DNA of 64,000 nt from contig JAICQO010000021.1 of the NCBI GenBank assembly GCA_025937835.1, positions 1 to 64,000 of the forward strand, read 5' to 3'. The translations under genes and the position numbers were made by a program. This document shows positions 7,094 through 20,203 of the stretch, piece after piece; positions within the stretch are counted from its first letter, which is position 1, and each line of letters starts with the position of its first letter. Source of the stretch: Polyangiaceae bacterium. Lineage in GTDB: Bacteria; Myxococcota_A; Polyangia; Polyangiales; Polyangiaceae. The notes beneath the pieces are model-generated. The model saw only the letters and a list, made by a program, of their open reading frames with translations, was not told the DNA's origin and searched no databases.

Positions 7094-7867
7094 TCAGCGC
7101 GTACCCGTTCGGATGGAGTCCGAGCCCTCGGAGAACGGGATGGCCGAGCGAACGCCGGACTTGGACGCAGCGCTCGGTCGGCGGAGCTTGGCCGCGAACG
7201 CTTCGACCACGATCTCGGTCGCCGCCTGGAGCGTGATGGTGCTCGAGTTGATCAACAGATCGAACTGGCCCAGTTGCTCGATGTCGACGTTGAACCGGTC
7301 GCGATAAAACGCCGTACGCTCGGCATCCACGCGCGTGGTGAGCACCTCGGCCTGCGCGAGCGAGATCCTGCGGCGATCGGCGATGCGCTGCGAGCGCCAG
7401 GCCGCCGGCGCGAACGAGCGCACTCTGAGCGTGAGCTCCGGATCGAGGATCAAATGCGCACCGCGCCCGACGATCACGCCCTGCCCGTGGCGCGCGAACG
7501 TGAGCAGAACCTCCGATAGGTTCCTCAGATAGTCGCTGGCGGTGAAATGCCGCTGTTCGACGAGCTCATCGACCCAGCGCACGATGCCGGAGCGCGCCCG
7601 CTCGTCGAGCGATTCGACGACTTTGCGGCGGACGTGCGCGTGCTTGGCGATCTCGTCGACCAGATCTTGATCGTACACGTGAAAGCCGAGCCGCTCTCCG
7701 ACTGCTCGCGCCAGATCCGCTCCGTAGGCGCCGAACTGTCGCGATACGCAGATCACGGGTCGCTGGCCTTCGCCACGGCTCGGCGGCGGATCGTCCGGGA
7801 CTCGCCGTTGTTGCTCCAGCCACTTCAACACTTGTTGATTGACGAGTTGCTCGATACTTCGCGACAT
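7094..7867 (-). CDS. Cytidylate kinase-like protein
   Basis: The 257-residue protein resembles the cytidylate-kinase-like family (PF13189). After a 45-residue N-terminal extension it has VICVSRQFGAYGADLARAVG, a P-loop-like segment, then YDQDLVDEIA and an Arg-rich lid region (RSQRIADRRRISL, RDRFNVD). Such proteins are distant relatives of CMP kinase, and the true substrate is not known. ATG 7867 (MSRSIEQ) is chosen over ATG 7894 because GGGAGGCGCCG stands in front of it. The last 35 residues are Ser/Arg-rich and probably disordered. It is transcribed divergently from the endoglucanase. Confidence 0.8.
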   Translation of the reverse strand: MSRSIEQLVNQQVLKWLEQQRRVPDDPPPSRGEGQRPVICVSRQFGAYGADLARAVGERLGFHVYDQDLVDEIAKHAHVRRKVVESLDERARSGIVRWVDELVEQRHFTASDYLRNLSEVLLTFARHGQGVIVGRGAHLILDPELTLRVRSFAPAAWRSQRIADRRRISLAQAEVLTTRVDAERTAFYRDRFNVDIEQLGQFDLLINSSTITLQAATEIVVEAFAAKLRRPSAASKSGVRSAIPFSEGSDSIRTGTR

Positions 7868-7954
7868 CGGCGCCTCCCGTGTGGTCGAACGCATAGATTA
7901 CTGCGTTGCCGAGATTGTCGCCATGATAAAACCCTGCCAGCGGAACCCTCGAGG

Positions 7955-9544
7955 ATGACGCACAAAGACATTTCCCAACGCAAAGCGCTGCGAGCACGCA
8001 GCATGCAAGGCTCGCTCGCTTCGATCTTGGTCATCGTCGCGGCTTCGCTCGACGCCACCGGCTGCGACGCCAGCAACTCTTCGGGGGGCGACGCGACCGG
8101 CAGCGCGCCACCGATCTCGACCGGCGGCACGCCGGGAAACGCCGGTAGTCCGGGCGCGAACGGCGGCGCACCAGCGCCCTCGAGCGGCGGGGTTGCGACT
8201 GGCGGCGCGCTGGCCGCCGGCGCTGCGAACGGCGGCGGCGGTGGCTCAACCAGCACCGGCAACGCCGGGAGCGGTGCAGGCGGGGCGGCAAATGGCGGTA
8301 GCAGTAACGGCGGCGCGCCTTCGGGCGGCATGGCCTCGAGCGGCAGCGCGGGCCTCGGCGGCAACGCAGGAAGCGGTGGAATGAGCACGGCAGGCAGCGG
8401 CGGAAAAATTGGAACGGGCTCGCATCAGTTCCCCGAAAACCAGCGCCTCGAGCGTTGCGCTTACCCGACGAACGCCAACCCCGCCGACGTCGTCAAGGCC
8501 TACGAGCGCTTCAAGACCGAGATCGTCACGTCCGAAGGCGCGCGCGGTCACCTGCGCGTGAAGCGACCGAACTCGCCGGGCGCCGAGGTCAACTCCACCG
8601 TCTCCGAAGGCATCGCTTACGGCATGGTGATTGCCGTCGCGATGGGCGATCAGCCGTTGTTCGACGGCCTCTGGAAGTACTCGCAGGAGTTCTTGAACGA
8701 GAACGGGTTGATGCACTGGTACATCAACCCCGCCGGCACCGCGCCGATTTCGACGGGAGGCGCCACCGACTCGGACGAGGACATGGCCTGGGCGCTGGTG
8801 ATGGCCGACCGGCAATGGGGCGGCAAAGGCTCGCTCGACAAGGACTACATCGAATACGCGAAGACCCAGATCCAGGCGATCTGGGATCACGAGATCGACC
8901 ACACCCAGGGCGATTTCCTGAAGCCGGGAGACACCTGGAACGAGACGGTCTTCAACCCGTCGTACTTCGCTCCCAATCAGTATCGGATCTTCGGTCAGGT
9001 CACCGGCAAGGTCGCGGAGTGGAACCGCGTGATCGACCGCGGCTACGAGATGCTCGACAAGTGCCTGAACGCCGAGAACAAGAACCAGGACAACGGCCTC
9101 GCGCCGGCCTGGTGCGACTTGAACGGCAAACCCACCGGCACCAACAGCGCCTTCAACTACCAGTACGACTCCGCGCGCATCCCTTTCCGCATCGGCCAGG
9201 ACTACTGTTACAACGGCGAACCGCGCGCCAAGGCGTACCTCGAGAAGATCAGCACGTTCTTCGCGAACATCGGCGCCGCCAAGATCGTCGACGGCTACGC
9301 GCTCGACGGGACGCCCGAGCCGGACAAGGACAGCGACCCGAACGGCCCGCAATCAGCCGTGTTCGTCGGCACCGCCGCAGTCGGCGCCATGCACGACCCC
9401 AAATTCCAGAGCTTCATCGACGAAGCCTACGCGCTCGTCGCGACCGGCGAGCTGCTCGCACGCAGCCGCTACTACAACCTGAGCTGGACGCCCCTCACGC
9501 TGCTGATGCTCACGGGCAACCTCAACGAATTCCCGGCCCCCTAA
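7955..9544 (+). CDS. Glycoside hydrolase family 8 endoglucanase, lipoprotein with long Gly/Ala linker
   Basis: The protein has 529 residues with a hydrophobic leader ending in ATGC (probable lipidation site), then a Gly/Ala/Ser-rich linker (about residues 40-150) and a GH8 catalytic domain (about 160-529). The proton-donor motif SEGIAYGM (Glu in VSEG) and the base-bearing ATDSDEDMAWAL segment are both present, as are the conserved W and Y residues of the cleft. GH8 enzymes invert beta-1,4 links in cellulose, xylan, lichenan or chitosan; the substrate cannot be read from sequence. A surface-tethered cellulase fits a saprophytic Sorangium-like life style. ATG 7955 and ATG 8003 are both possible starts. 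Terminator-like repeats follow directly. Confidence 0.92.
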   Translation: MTHKDISQRKALRARSMQGSLASILVIVAASLDATGCDASNSSGGDATGSAPPISTGGTPGNAGSPGANGGAPAPSSGGVATGGALAAGAANGGGGGSTSTGNAGSGAGGAANGGSSNGGAPSGGMASSGSAGLGGNAGSGGMSTAGSGGKIGTGSHQFPENQRLERCAYPTNANPADVVKAYERFKTEIVTSEGARGHLRVKRPNSPGAEVNSTVSEGIAYGMVIAVAMGDQPLFDGLWKYSQEFLNENGLMHWYINPAGTAPISTGGATDSDEDMAWALVMADRQWGGKGSLDKDYIEYAKTQIQAIWDHEIDHTQGDFLKPGDTWNETVFNPSYFAPNQYRIFGQVTGKVAEWNRVIDRGYEMLDKCLNAENKNQDNGLAPAWCDLNGKPTGTNSAFNYQYDSARIPFRIGQDYCYNGEPRAKAYLEKISTFFANIGAAKIVDGYALDGTPEPDKDSDPNGPQSAVFVGTAAVGAMHDPKFQSFIDEAYALVATGELLARSRYYNLSWTPLTLLMLTGNLNEFPAP

Positions 9545-9561
9545 CGGCCAAACGGCCACGG

Positions 9562-9928
9562 GCGCTCCAGAATTTACCGCCAAAGGCGCCAGGCGGAACG
9601 CCACGGGCGCCAGGTTTTTTGGGGGGGAGCACTGCGCGTCGCTGCGCGCAAGGTTACGACTCGGGCTCCGTTTACCTCTGCGCGCTCGGAGATACCGCCA
9701 CGCGCGCTCCAGAATTGACCGCCAATGGGCGCCAGGCGGAACGCCACGGGCGCCAGTTTTTTTTGGGGGGGAGCACTGCGCGTCGCTGCGCGCAAGGTTA
9801 CGACTCGGGCTCCGTTTACCTCTGCGCGCTCGGAGATACCGCCACGCGCGCTCCAGAATTGACCGCCAAAGGAGCCAGGCGGAACGCCACGGGCGCCAGG
9901 TTTTTTGGGGGGAGCACTGCGCGTCGCT
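9562..9928 (+). repeat. Tandem repeat array, period about 143 bp, 2.6 copies
   Basis: The marker GCGCTCCAGAATT recurs at 9562, 9704 and 9848 (spacing 142 and 144). Each unit holds an ACCGCCAA segment, a GGCGCC...GGCGCC palindromic core, a run of 6-8 T followed by 6-7 G, then in units 1 and 2 a spacer with TACGACTCGGGCTCCG and the 5' flank of the next unit. The third copy breaks off at about 9928. Copies differ by a few substitutions and T/G-run length. Confidence 0.92.
9585..9620 (+). terminator. Hairpin plus T-run, candidate terminator of the endoglucanase gene (first of three)
   Basis: GGCGCC (9585-9590) can pair with GGCGCC (9606-9611); inside, GGCG and CGCC flank a GAA loop. TTTTTT follows at 9615-9620. 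Two further copies follow in the array: 9728-9764 with eight T, and 9871-9906 with a degenerate left arm (GGAGCC). Position 40 nt after the stop codon fits intrinsic termination. Confidence 0.6.
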
Positions 9929-10016
9929 ACGGTTCGTGGGACGACCGCGTCGAGACCTTCTTAGACGCTCTCGACGTCATTCGTGCCGCTGCTCAAGCGA
10001 TGCCAGACGGCGGTGC

Positions 10017-10320
10017 CGTGACCTTCGACCAGGTTCGACGTAGTTCGCGACCCCATAATCCTGGCGCCCGTGGCGCTCTGCCCGGCGCCCGTGGCGGTAA
10101 AACTCTGGAGACGTCCCCGTCGTGACCTTCGACGAAGTTTGACGTGCAGTGCGACCCCCCCAAATCCCTGGCGCCCGTGGCGCTCTGCCTGGCGCCCTGG
10201 CGGTAAATCTGGAGCGTTCAGAGACGTGCCCTTTGCGAGGTTCGACGTACTTCGCGACCCCAAATCCTGGCGCCTGTGGCCTCTGCCTGGCGCCCGTGGC
10301 GGTAAATTCTGGATACGTCC
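10017..10320 (-). repeat. Tandem repeat array, period about 104 bp, about 2.9 copies, inverted relative to the first array
   Basis: The marker GCGACCCC recurs at 10047, 10151 and 10254 (GCGACCC plus C), spacing 104 and 103. Each unit reads TTCGAC...GCGACCCC, then CTGGCGCCCGTGGCG and a GGCGCC/GGCGGTAAA segment. That core is the reverse complement of the core in the 9562-9928 array, so the two arrays face each other. Its T-run equivalent is shorter (GGATTTGGGG on the minus strand). Confidence 0.9.
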
Positions 10321-10342
10321 GCGACGTCCAGGGGCCGCGACG

Positions 10343-12757
10343 TTAGTGGGTGAGGGGGACGGTCGCGAGGATCTTGGAGAGCTCGGTGAGGTTTGCGACG
10401 TTGAGCTTGGTGTCGCTGATGCCGAGCGCGAAGTCGTCCATGAAGATGCTGCGCTTCACGAGGGAGGTGCTGTTGGACCACCAGGTGCCGCAGCTCGCGC
10501 CGGGGGTGCCCGCGGGTGCGGCTTGTTGGGCGTCCACGAAGGGCATCCGGCCCCGTTCGACGATGCCTTCTTCGAGTGACACGTCGAACACCATCAGCCC
10601 GCTGAACGTGAGCTGGTCGGCGTAGACTCCGTCGTCACCGCCTTCGCAGACGGTCATCGGTAGCGCGAGCAGCTGCTTCTGCGCGAAGTAGTTGAACGCC
10701 AGGTGGTTCATCAGCGCCTCGGAGCCCGAGCCGCGCGTGCCGATCACGGTTTTGTGCAAGAGCCGGGGGTCCGCGAGATCCGTCACGTCGAAGATCTGGA
10801 TCTGAATACCGTCGAAGTACGCAAAGTCGCCGTGGTCGTCCGCGTCGAAGCCCACCGCGAGCAGGTGATGGTCGTCGAGCCGGTGCATGTACGTCGAAAA
10901 ACCCGGGATCTTGAGCTCGCCGAGCACCTTCGGCGCGCTCGGCTCGGCAAGGTCGATCACGAACAGCGGGTCGGTCTTCTTGAAGGTGACAACGAAGCCG
11001 CGGTCGCCGTCGAAGCGCACCGAGCGGATGTCTTCCTGGGGAGCGAGCCCGGTCAGCTCACCGCGCCGCACGAAGTTTCCCTGTTCGTCGGAGCCGAACG
11101 TGGTCACGTTGCTCGAGACGTCCGGGTTCGGGACGCGGCCGCTGCTAGTGGCCACGCGCAGCACTCCCTGGTGCTCATCCATGCTGAATTGATTGAGCAC
11201 GTGGCCGCGCACCGCCTGGCTGCCGGCGTAGAGCGTGCTCGTGCCCTCGAGCGAAAACTTGTGGATCGTGCTGCGCTCGCTTTCGGCGGCGCCGGAGTAA
11301 GGCTGCGGGTAGGCGTCGCCGCCGTCCACGCCGTCGGTCGCGAGGTAGAGCGCCTCCGCCGACGAATACACGAACCCCGGCTTGCCCGCGATCAACGTGC
11401 GCCGCGGAGGCGCGAGCGTATCGAGATCGAACGCCACGAGCGAGACGAAGCTGAGCCCGGCGGCGGCCTTGCCCACCAGCGCCGAGTCGCACGCCTCGAT
11501 CGGCTGGGGCTCACCGCCGCTCTCGCCCACCTCACTGACCCAGGGCACGAAGAACGCAGACGGCACGGCGTCGATCGTCTGCTCGATCGACTGGCGGCGG
11601 TCCTGATAGCTCGCGCGCAGCGCCTCCAGGCTCGTAGACTCGAGCTTCAGGTCCACCGGTGGAGACGAAGTGGCGCCCGTGTCGTGGACCACCGTGTACA
11701 CGGTCGACCCGACCCGGCGCGCCGCTACGAAGCCGCCAGACAGGTCGAAGCGATGGAGCAGCACCGGAGCGGCCGCGTTCGACACGTCGAACAGCGTGAT
11801 CGCGGTGCGGCCGCCCTCGCTCGTGAAGCGACAGTCGTAGCCGTAGGTGCAGCCTTGCATCGACGGGCTCTGCCCAGCCGCCCCGACCCCGTTCGGAGCG
11901 TAGCTCGACGACTCGACGCGCGAATACACGGCCAGCACGTCCCCCTCGAGGAACATGCGTCGCGGCTCGCCGACCACCGTGATCTTCGCGATCTCTCTGG
12001 CCTCTTCGGCGGGCCAGGCATCGATCACGTGCAAGCCAGTCGGCGACAGCACGTAGACGTGCTCGTCGTCGTTCTTCACGAAATCCGGCTCGTCGACGTC
12101 CTCTACCTGAGTGTTCGTGGTGGACACTTCACTGGCGCCGCCCCCCTCGTCCTCCGTTGCCGGCGTGCCCGTGTTCCCCGGCATGGTGGGGGACGGCGCG
12201 GTAGGCGCGAATGCGATGGGCGAACCCGGCGCGCTGGATGTCCCCCCGGTGGCGCTCGGCCACATCGTGGTGGATGGACAATACGGGATCCGCTCTCCGC
12301 GCTCGTTCGTGAGATAGCTCGAGGTAGTCGGAAAGCAGCGGCTCGCGAGCTGGCTGCGGTACGTCGCGTCGAGTTGCGCGACGTAGTTGCGCTTCAGCAC
12401 GGGCCTCCGCAGCGCGGCGAGGCCCGCGCAATCAGTCTGCGAGAGCGACACGTCCAGGCTATCGCTAGAGCTCGTCACGGGGACCGCTGGCGTAGGCGTC
12501 GCGCCCGTGCTCACTCCTCGCGCGAGGTCCTTCTCTTCTTGCGTGCACTCCCACGCGGGCGGCATCTCGACGATAACCGTGATGCACTGGCTGGCAGTCG
12601 GTGGCGGCGGCTCGACGCTCGTGACTTTCCCGCCGTCCTCCGTGATGTCGCCGACCTTGGGCAGCCCCTCGGAGCTGTTCGAGTGTCCGCAGCCCGCAAG
12701 CACAGCGAAGGTCAGCCCCGTCGCACGCAACCCTCCGAGCCATTTCGTGTATGCCAT
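10343..12757 (-). CDS. Lipoprotein with C-terminal beta-propeller domain (COG4880-like)
   Basis: The 804-residue protein starts with a lipoprotein signal (lipobox LAGC near residue 20). After about 190 residues of Pro/Thr/Ser-rich sequence comes a region matching secreted beta-propeller proteins (PF09826), opening with VEDVDEPDFVKND and continuing with repeated hydrophobic strands (for example VLGELKIPGFSTYMHRLD and HLLAVGFDADDHGDF). The family is found in archaea and diverse bacteria and its role is unknown. ATG 12757 is chosen over upstream codons because GGAGGCTGGCGA precedes it and it exposes the lipobox. Confidence 0.88.
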   Translation of the reverse strand: MAYTKWLGGLRATGLTFAVLAGCGHSNSSEGLPKVGDITEDGGKVTSVEPPPPTASQCITVIVEMPPAWECTQEEKDLARGVSTGATPTPAVPVTSSSDSLDVSLSQTDCAGLAALRRPVLKRNYVAQLDATYRSQLASRCFPTTSSYLTNERGERIPYCPSTTMWPSATGGTSSAPGSPIAFAPTAPSPTMPGNTGTPATEDEGGGASEVSTTNTQVEDVDEPDFVKNDDEHVYVLSPTGLHVIDAWPAEEAREIAKITVVGEPRRMFLEGDVLAVYSRVESSSYAPNGVGAAGQSPSMQGCTYGYDCRFTSEGGRTAITLFDVSNAAAPVLLHRFDLSGGFVAARRVGSTVYTVVHDTGATSSPPVDLKLESTSLEALRASYQDRRQSIEQTIDAVPSAFFVPWVSEVGESGGEPQPIEACDSALVGKAAAGLSFVSLVAFDLDTLAPPRRTLIAGKPGFVYSSAEALYLATDGVDGGDAYPQPYSGAAESERSTIHKFSLEGTSTLYAGSQAVRGHVLNQFSMDEHQGVLRVATSSGRVPNPDVSSNVTTFGSDEQGNFVRRGELTGLAPQEDIRSVRFDGDRGFVVTFKKTDPLFVIDLAEPSAPKVLGELKIPGFSTYMHRLDDHHLLAVGFDADDHGDFAYFDGIQIQIFDVTDLADPRLLHKTVIGTRGSGSEALMNHLAFNYFAQKQLLALPMTVCEGGDDGVYADQLTFSGLMVFDVSLEEGIVERGRMPFVDAQQAAPAGTPGASCGTWWSNSTSLVKRSIFMDDFALGISDTKLNVANLTELSKILATVPLTH

Positions 12758-18049: not shown

Positions 18050-18426
18050 GCTCCCGAACGCCGGTAGCGCCGACTCGGGTTTCCCGAGGCTCTGGCCGCC
18101 GGCATTCGCGCCCCGCCCCGTCGAGGACCTGACCCAAGCTCATTCGTGACGGAGCAGGTCCTTCCCGACGCGGCGGGAGCGGCCAATCGGAGCGTTCATC
18201 CGGTTCGACCCCAGCGGCGACCGGGTGAGCCACCAAGGCGGCGGATTCAGATCCCTTCCTTGGCCCGGGCACGCGAACGGTCGGATTCATCTATCCCTCC
18301 GTTCGCGTGCTCGGCACGAGACTGCAGTCCCTGAGGAAACGCAGTCTCCCGCACTAACGGCCCTGAGCTCGGGGTGCGATCTCGTTACTTCGCGCCCTGC
18401 GACGCGCCCTGCTCATCCCCGAAAAT

Positions 18427-18494
18427 CTGGCGCCCGTGGCGCGCTGCCTGGCGCTCTGGCGGTTTCTCTGGAGCCGTTGCCGAGACGTGGTGCG
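18427..18494 (-). repeat. Solitary dispersed copy of the GGCGCC repeat core
   Basis: TCTGGCGCCCGTGGCG and a following GCCTGGCGCTCTGGCGGT segment match the core of the array at 10017-10320. Similarity continues through CTGGAGC...GAGACGTG to about 18494. On the minus strand the core ends in ATTTTCGGGG. As at 10 kb, it sits 3' of a gene ending towards it (18599). Confidence 0.75.
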
Positions 18495-18598: not shown

Positions 18599-20203
18599 CT
18601 AATCCCCCAGATAGAGCCGGAGGGTGCTGGCGGCGGCGCGGCGGTCGAAGGGCGCGGAGGAGAGCTCTTCGCGGCGGGAAATGTCTTCGAACAGCTGCGA
18701 GAGGAATTGGTGGAAGGCGACGCATTCTTCGAGCGCGACGCGGAGGCGCGCGGGATCGATCAGATCCGTCTCTTCCAGGCGCGACATCGCGGTCATGAAG
18801 GAGTCGACACGCGGGTAGTCCGAGGCGCGGAGCAGCGGTAGGCCCATGGCGCGGAAGTAGTTGAGGAACTCGCGCACGTACTGGAAGTTCTGGAGGGCAG
18901 CCCAGCGATCGTCGCCCGGGGAGTGCTGGGCCTTGGTCGCGAAGGCGCGGACGATTTGCGCGAACATCCAGATGTCGCGGCGTAGCCGTTCGCTGGCGTC
19001 GCGGCGCGCTGCGAGGGCGTCGAAGACTCCACCCTCGTCGAGGCTGACGCCCAGCGCCTTGCCGAGGAACAGGATCGAGTTGCGGAGCGCGGGTCGTAGG
19101 TTCTCGACCGCGAGCAGCACCGCCTGAGTCGTGGCAGCGGGGGCGTCGAGCGACTCGGGGTCGGGCAGATCGTGCTGAAACGCGCGCCGGAAATCGAGGC
19201 GCAGGCCGCCGGCAATGCCCTCGAGCGCGCTCTTGATGCCGAGCAGCCGGTGACCCGCGGCGTGCAGGTTCGCTGCGCGCGCCGGGAGCGCCTGCGCGTG
19301 CACGGACAAGACGTCGCGTTCGAAGCTATCGGCGAGCAGCCGGCCCGCGCGGCGGCGGAGATGGTCGCTGAGCGCGCGCGCGTCCGAGCGCAGCACGCTG
19401 AGCACGAGGTACGCGCTGCCCACGGCCTGGCGGCGGCTCGCGCTCTCGGCGCTCAGGCGCTCGAGCAGGGACAGGTAGCGCAGCATGCGGAACAGCGACA
19501 GAAAGGTCAGCGCCACCAGGCGGTGGGCCTCGACTCCCGGCACGCTGCGGATCAACTCGAGGACCTGCGCTGAGCGAATGCGATCGAACTCGGGGCGAAA
19601 CTCGAGCGCGTTCAGCGGGTTGAAGAAGGTGTTGCGGTCGATCTCGCGATACAGCGAGGCGAGCAGCGTGTGGAACAGGCGGTACGAGACGCGCTGGGCG
19701 CGCACGACGCCGTCGGCGAGCTCGGCGGTGCCGATCAACGCCTGGCGCAGCGCGATCAGGCTCTCTTCCGGCGTGCGCTGGCTGCCGCCCTCCGACAAGA
19801 GCCGCGTCCGCGCCTGGTCTTCGGGCAGCACCGTCTCGAGGTAGCGGTGGAAGACCAGCGCGCGCTCGCGGTTGCCGAGCAAGATCCGCGACAAGCCCGC
19901 AGCACGCGAGAAGCCGTCACAGGCGAGCTGGGTCGCCGAGCGGAAGTTCTGGGCGACGACAGGCACGCGTCGCGGCTTGCCGGGGTGGTTGCGCGGGTTC
20001 GAGAAGCAGGCCGCGGCCTTGAGCAGCACCTCGAACTCGAACAAGACCTCTTCCTTGTTCTCGAGCTCGAGGCCGTCGTGCCACGCGTCGCGCTCGGCGC
20101 GCTGCTCGCGAGCCAGGCGGCGAGTGCCGCTCAGGAGCGCCGCATACGCGTCTTCGCCCCCGAGCGACGGCGGGATCAGGCTACGCCGTGCCGACACGTC
20201 CAT
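18599..20203 (-). CDS. Conserved hypothetical protein, largely helical
   Basis: The 534-residue protein has no signal peptide, membrane segment or motif that I recognise. It is rich in Leu, Ala and Arg with a regular helical pattern throughout, for example the stretch around LVALTFLSLFRMLRYLSLLERL (about residues 230-250). It is probably cytoplasmic. The gene starts 12 nt after the stop of an AgmX-type lipoprotein gene, so the two are probably co-transcribed. The role is unknown. Confidence 0.7.
   Translation of the reverse strand: MDVSARRSLIPPSLGGEDAYAALLSGTRRLAREQRAERDAWHDGLELENKEEVLFEFEVLLKAAACFSNPRNHPGKPRRVPVVAQNFRSATQLACDGFSRAAGLSRILLGNRERALVFHRYLETVLPEDQARTRLLSEGGSQRTPEESLIALRQALIGTAELADGVVRAQRVSYRLFHTLLASLYREIDRNTFFNPLNALEFRPEFDRIRSAQVLELIRSVPGVEAHRLVALTFLSLFRMLRYLSLLERLSAESASRRQAVGSAYLVLSVLRSDARALSDHLRRRAGRLLADSFERDVLSVHAQALPARAANLHAAGHRLLGIKSALEGIAGGLRLDFRRAFQHDLPDPESLDAPAATTQAVLLAVENLRPALRNSILFLGKALGVSLDEGGVFDALAARRDASERLRRDIWMFAQIVRAFATKAQHSPGDDRWAALQNFQYVREFLNYFRAMGLPLLRASDYPRVDSFMTAMSRLEETDLIDPARLRVALEECVAFHQFLSQLFEDISRREELSSAPFDRRAAASTLRLYLGD

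Follow-up and report, generated by a model that had tools for sequence, protein, structure and literature searches.

REP elements are palindromes of 20-40 bp capable of folding into a stem-loop, and one of their ends bears a GTAG or CGTC tag (PMC3733652). Together with BIMEs and REPINs, they are high-copy extragenic sequences with a preference for convergent and unidirectional spacers (PMC3733652, PMC3116915, PMC2817692, PMC1525189), and the repeat family described here resembles them in these traits as well as in lying 3′ of coding regions, forming pairs of opposite orientation and having ends able to supply stop codons. Apart from REPs, few dispersed bacterial repeats are bound so strictly to the layout of genes, and the present family departs from the REP pattern: in place of a constant palindrome its core consists of direct words in a row, whose spelling is interchangeable, and neither a conserved tag nor a RAYT/Y1 transposase was found. 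The cyanobacterial STRR sequences are short tandemly repeated heptamers in intergenic DNA; compared by description, the present words share with them the heptameric unit and the intergenic location, but they lie 1-4 nt apart with a variable spacer, are oriented to gene ends and are common to several phyla. The attC sites and the Vibrio VCR repeats are, like the present repeat, inverted elements located directly behind a stop codon in an orientation fixed to the gene, and attC sites carry conserved RYYYAAC/GTTRRRY boxes (R″/R′) and belong to one cassette array. In contrast, the copies described here are dispersed over the genome, and those boxes were not among the conserved columns of an alignment of 84 copies (alignment A1).

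The window, that is, the whole stretch of 64,000 nt analysed from a Polyangiaceae bacterium (contig JAICQO010000021.1), contains a GH8 glycosyl hydrolase gene ending in a TAA stop codon (9542-9544) and, convergent to it, a gene encoding a beta-propeller domain protein. In the spacer shared by these genes, Tandem Repeats Finder recovered the two opposed tandem arrays that an initial annotation had described, with three copies on the + strand and three on the − strand (Table 1). The periods proposed there, 143 and 104 bp, are close to the copy-to-copy steps, which measure 145 and 144 bp in array 1 and 106 and 104 bp in array 2. The arrays are mutually inverted, with 56-nt arms that are 86% complementary; units inside them are 75-95% identical, and each array is directed away from the adjoining stop codon, as had been noted. 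One repeat underlies the two arrays, and its GGCGCC core occurs twice per copy, the two occurrences lying ∼21 nt apart. Read in the orientation of the coding strand, the shared part of the window copies approximates TTTACCGCCACGGGCGCCAGGCAGAACGCCACGGGCGCCAGG, followed by a T-run and then a G-run. The T-run reported behind the core of the first array is clear (TTTTTT, TTTTTTTT and TTTTTT, then G-runs), while that of the second array is weak (ATTATGGGG, ATTTGGGG and ATTTGGGG). Chance is excluded as the origin of the window arrays because the same element recurs in ∼50 other spacers.

Table 1. Genes, arrays and repeat copies of the window, and type D arrays at other loci (types are named after the repeated word; see text)
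Feature	Position	Strand	Basis and remarks
GH8 glycosyl hydrolase gene, 5′ of array 1	7547..9544	+	PF01270, E=1.8e-50; ORF limits, true start uncertain
Beta-propeller domain protein gene, 5′ of array 2	10343..12757	-	PF09826, E=1e-123; stop codon 10343-10345
Array 1, tandem	9555..9928	+	Tandem Repeats Finder; period 144, 2.6 copies, 94% matches
Array 2, tandem	10017..10327	-	Tandem Repeats Finder; period 104, 3.0 copies, 80% matches
Type A copy 1, array 1	9573..9624	+	Profile match; two GGCGCC words, T6, G7; 29 nt past GH8 stop codon
Type A copy 2, array 1	9718..9767	+	Profile match
Type A copy 3, array 1	9862..9910	+	Profile match; first core degraded to GGAGCC
Type A copy, array 2, innermost	10052..10101	-	Profile match
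Type A copy, array 2, middle	10158..10207	-	Profile match
Type A copy, array 2, nearest to gene	10262..10306	-	Profile match; 37 nt from beta-propeller stop codon
Lone further type A copy	18418..18462	-	BLAST/profile match; 137 nt behind - strand gene 18599-20203, same orientation rule
Type D arrays	L092:7516-7775; L097:3921; L110:3134 and 3525; L121:3188
Type D arrays, continued	L124:3144, 3387 and 3614; L270:3806; L273:3206

A BLAST search with the core gave 35 matches in this Polyangiaceae genome, and a profile built from the 84 aligned copies of A1 gave 115 copies at E ≤ 0.001; the copies are kin, so that such counts do not represent independent events. The genome is a draft MAG of 6.9 Mb in 227 contigs with several arrays at contig ends, and therefore the copy numbers are minimum values and misassembly may have affected some arrays. 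Contigs with arrays at their ends include C45, C14, C159, C205, C25, C160, C201, C202 and C182 of this genome (G000), which indicates that the assembly breaks at the repeat and that the true copy number is probably higher. Position, T-run and tail are common to the spellings A, B and C while the repeated word differs, being CGCCACG/CGCCAGG in type A (the spelling of the window), CGCCAAG in type B and CGCAAAG in type C. Type D, recognised after these three, carries the word AGGAAG, as in AACAGGAAGACAGGAAGACAGGAAG, also followed by a T-run. At each of the diagnostic columns 11, 34 and 45 of A1, a C-to-A change occurred in 11 of the 84 copies; visual inspection places the change in the same 11 rows at all three columns, and thus the words of one copy change spelling together. 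Columns 54-56 hold a T in 78-82 of the 84 copies, and the consensus of the tail 3′ of the G-run is close to GCACTGCGCGNCGCAGCGCGNCGNAGTAACGGCG. Rfam yielded no match at the gathering score, with two sub-threshold matches only, to a plant microRNA model, and a plasmid search with a repeat unit from the window gave no match.

With genes called by a purpose-written codon-model script, complete spacers carrying copies comprised 29 convergent, 13 tandem and 1 divergent, versus 7, 61 and 51, respectively, among copy-free spacers of at least 50 bp in the same DNA (Fisher's test, P = 3.2e-15 for the enrichment in convergent and P = 8.7e-8 for the depletion in divergent spacers). The family is thus placed as REPs are: it is extragenic, enriched between convergent genes and depleted between divergent ones. 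At 57 gene ends the array is directed away from the stop codon, with the first copy a median of ∼29 nt behind it (mostly 4-60 nt). The lead of the element contains the stop codon itself in several genes (L108, L102, L119). The order is inward in all 12 spacers that hold A, B or C copies of both orientations. Few cases break the polarity: L118 and L266 do so, as do the + copies on the outer side in L092 and L104, and also L115, next to which the gene call is doubtful. Type D arrays, which were outside the set that defined the polarity rule, were directed away from the 3′ end of the adjacent gene in 11 of 11 cases; they are often placed at the gene end opposite CGCCAAG arrays and fill a gene end that had seemed empty in L092, L097, L110, L121, L124 and L270. 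Judging from the positions, an inward B/D pair appears to have been duplicated as a single unit in L092 and L110. The genome-wide search called for by the initial annotation therefore argues against random placement and orientation, since copies concentrate in convergent spacers with an orientation fixed relative to the upstream gene.

Single copies make up 35 of the 57 gene-end arrays and the remaining 22 hold 2-5 copies, with a unit length that varies between arrays from ∼20 to 250 bp. Distal copies are no less intact than the first, both in the T-run (P = 0.90) and in the profile score (P = 0.90), as expected of a repeat and not of a single needed terminator. These differing unit lengths and equally intact distal copies support the independent local amplification that had been proposed from the unequal periods of the two window arrays. 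In L096:1057-1167, a type A copy is lengthened by several internal repeats of 21 bp (GCCACGGGCGCCAGGCAGAGC), which represents growth inside a copy.

The description of the repeat as terminator-like held for type A and failed for its sister spellings. Type A copies show a predicted hairpin with a median of −18.0 kcal/mol whose stem ends 3 nt before the T-run, and so resemble an intrinsic (rho-independent) terminator, in that a GC hairpin precedes a T-run at a short distance from the stop codon. However, types B (−10.9 kcal/mol, z −0.3) and C (−8.5 kcal/mol, z +0.2) occupy equivalent places without folding above shuffled sequences, complementary arms were absent by eye from type D, and RNAalifold found no family-wide hairpin in the 84 copies (2 pairs, −0.24 kcal/mol). 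A further difference from intrinsic terminators is that the present repeats occur in dispersed and tandemly amplified form and that relatives lack them. The outer stem of type A is 96% paired and shows no compensatory change, so that its conservation may reflect mere descent. Type A copies may well terminate transcription, but hairpin and T-run occur together in the window spelling and are not combined in its sister spellings, so that termination neither unites nor defines the family.

The presence of the element among relatives is patchy. Profile matches were obtained in only 3 of 38 relatives, with four in G003, which is related to the window genome at the genus level, three in G020 and one in G016, and in these the element resembles AACCGCCAAGACGCCAAG...CTTGGCGTCTTGGCGGTT. 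At ppk, this genome carries the element and seven relatives lack it; neither target-site duplications nor a clean empty site were identified, because the DNA behind the gene differs in every relative. In this genome, the element is also missing from two beta-propeller paralogues. Its near absence from the 38 relatives, together with its absence at ppk in relatives and from the paralogues, marks the T-run form as a lineage-specific expansion. The earlier term 'mobile element' goes further than this patchy distribution, from which it would have to be deduced, as neither an empty site, nor a target duplication, nor a transposase was found.

We lean towards a dispersed extragenic repeat of REP-like kind that resides at gene ends, whose local amplification gave the window arrays and whose type A copies possibly terminate transcription. 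A copy is composed of a short lead that begins at or overlaps the stop codon, a few near-identical words, the T-run and G-run, and a GC-rich tail; in a convergent spacer each gene has its own array and the pair consequently faces inward. Copies would have spread within the genome and persisted at gene ends because promoters are unharmed there, and the polarity could derive either from the way copies arise behind a stop codon or from selection for a 3′-end function. Tandem duplication would then lengthen the arrays in place, while the strong predicted hairpin before the type A T-run may contribute to ending the transcripts of the two convergent genes, as a side effect or a co-opted role. The strictness of the polarity counts against this reading, as it is stronger than promoter avoidance alone would give; so do the negative results for a Y1 transposase, target-site duplications and a clean empty site, and the draft state of the assembly.

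The fixed polarity, the location close behind stop codons, the T-run in nearly all copies and the interchangeable words before the same T-run and tail would be accounted for if word array and U-tract formed a functional 3′-end module maintained by selection, either a terminator or a 3′-UTR stabiliser, with a word-reading RNA- or DNA-binding protein acting where the hairpin is absent. We regard this module as unlikely, because only ∼60 gene ends carry the element in a 6.9 Mb genome, relatives do without it at the same gene (ppk) as do the two beta-propeller paralogues, types B and C have no hairpin, and compensatory changes are missing even from the type A stem.

The words themselves extend well beyond this genome. 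When stretches with three exact copies of the word CGCCAAG were sought, at least 117 were returned, and the matches listed cover more than 10 phyla (Planctomycetota, Proteobacteria, Verrucomicrobia, Lentisphaerae, Cyanobacteria, Acidobacteria, Chloroflexi, Bacteroidetes, Gemmatimonadota, Nitrospinota and Myxococcota) and include isolates and complete genomes such as Sorangium cellulosum So ce26, Nostoc and Oscillatoria; across them, word identity is kept inside an array while the spacers drift. Within the phylum of the window genome, 66 of 377 genomes had at least one two-word match, giving ∼208 matches in total, concentrated in ∼12 genomes, versus ∼40 for the reversed pattern. Other spellings, for example CGCAAAG, CACAGAG, CGCGGAG and CGCAGAT, also occur: among triples without CGCCAAG in the same 8-kb stretches, 19 of 46 consisted of three identical words, with 0.67 expected by shuffling. 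A word-specific control gave 2 triples versus 219, most of the 219 being search-selected, and a reversed-sequence control was discarded because reversal preserves direct repeats. The type D word AGGAAG was not found in other genomes in a search that covered the cross-phylum word-array loci.

In the other phyla, inward pairs outnumbered outward pairs by 33 to 2 and convergent spacers were again enriched (32/104 vs 48/337, P = 2.5e-4). Tandem spacers showed no polarity to the gene (15 vs 21), so that the strict polarity characterises this genome and not the word class in general, and a T-run was not the rule in the genomes looked at. Neither the word strings nor repeats of this kind were found described in a search of the open-access literature. 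Tentatively, and with somewhat less than even confidence, we propose a pan-bacterial class of extragenic word arrays, in which a 7-base word (CRCNRAG/T) would be repeated three to four times with variable spacers of 1-4 nt, forming inward pairs mainly between genes, with many spellings but usually one per array, read or written by some machinery, and coupled in this lineage to a T-run to yield polar tags of gene 3′ ends. This raises the testable question of what copies or reads the words, and whether they shape transcript ends between convergent genes.

The enrichment between convergent genes, the inward pairs found elsewhere and the constancy of the word while spacers vary could also suit paired inward arrays that act as a roadblock or as a topological insulator separating convergent genes, perhaps by binding gyrase or a nucleoid protein, as has been suggested for BIMEs. 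This analogy seems to us rather improbable, given that copies are carried by 13 tandem spacers, mostly in one orientation only. Still less probable, and largely refuted, is the view that the family is a genuine REP/REPIN element with a RAYT transposase as the source of its mobility. High copy number, extragenic location in convergent and tandem spacers, paired opposite copies and overlap with stop codons are all as reported for REPs (PMC3733652), but the link to RAYT was rejected because no Y1 transposase (PF01797) matched at E ≤ 0.001 in this genome, of which ∼4% is missing, while five control genomes did match. In addition, a palindrome occurs in type A only and is absent family-wide, and no conserved columns corresponding to a GTAG or CGTC head were present in the 84 copies of A1 or in the tail consensus. 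An assembly artefact or a simple polymerase-slippage minisatellite without a family, which the draft state of the MAG and the frequent location of arrays at contig ends might suggest, is hardly credible, as single and tandem copies in ∼50 spacers obey the same rule, copies differ within the window arrays, and word arrays are present in relatives and other phyla. A family of REP-like repeats amplified at gene ends is the reading that we retain.

Finally, the arms of inward pairs differ in the spacers between their words: of 21 pairs, 14 had the same first spacer in both arms (8.2 expected) and 4 the same second spacer (2.3 expected). These counts lend little weight to exact hairpin pairing between the arms, and the variation argues that it is the word, and not exact base pairing, that is maintained. 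In a Bacteroidetes MAG (L183), triples of CGCCAAG and CACAGAG lie beside a CGCAAAG pair within ∼150 bp. Nested inward arrays with a mirrored vocabulary, CGCCAAG in the outer and CRCAGAG in the inner arrays, occur in two IMG/VR contigs filed as viral (L364:4390-4526 and L363:2011-2555).
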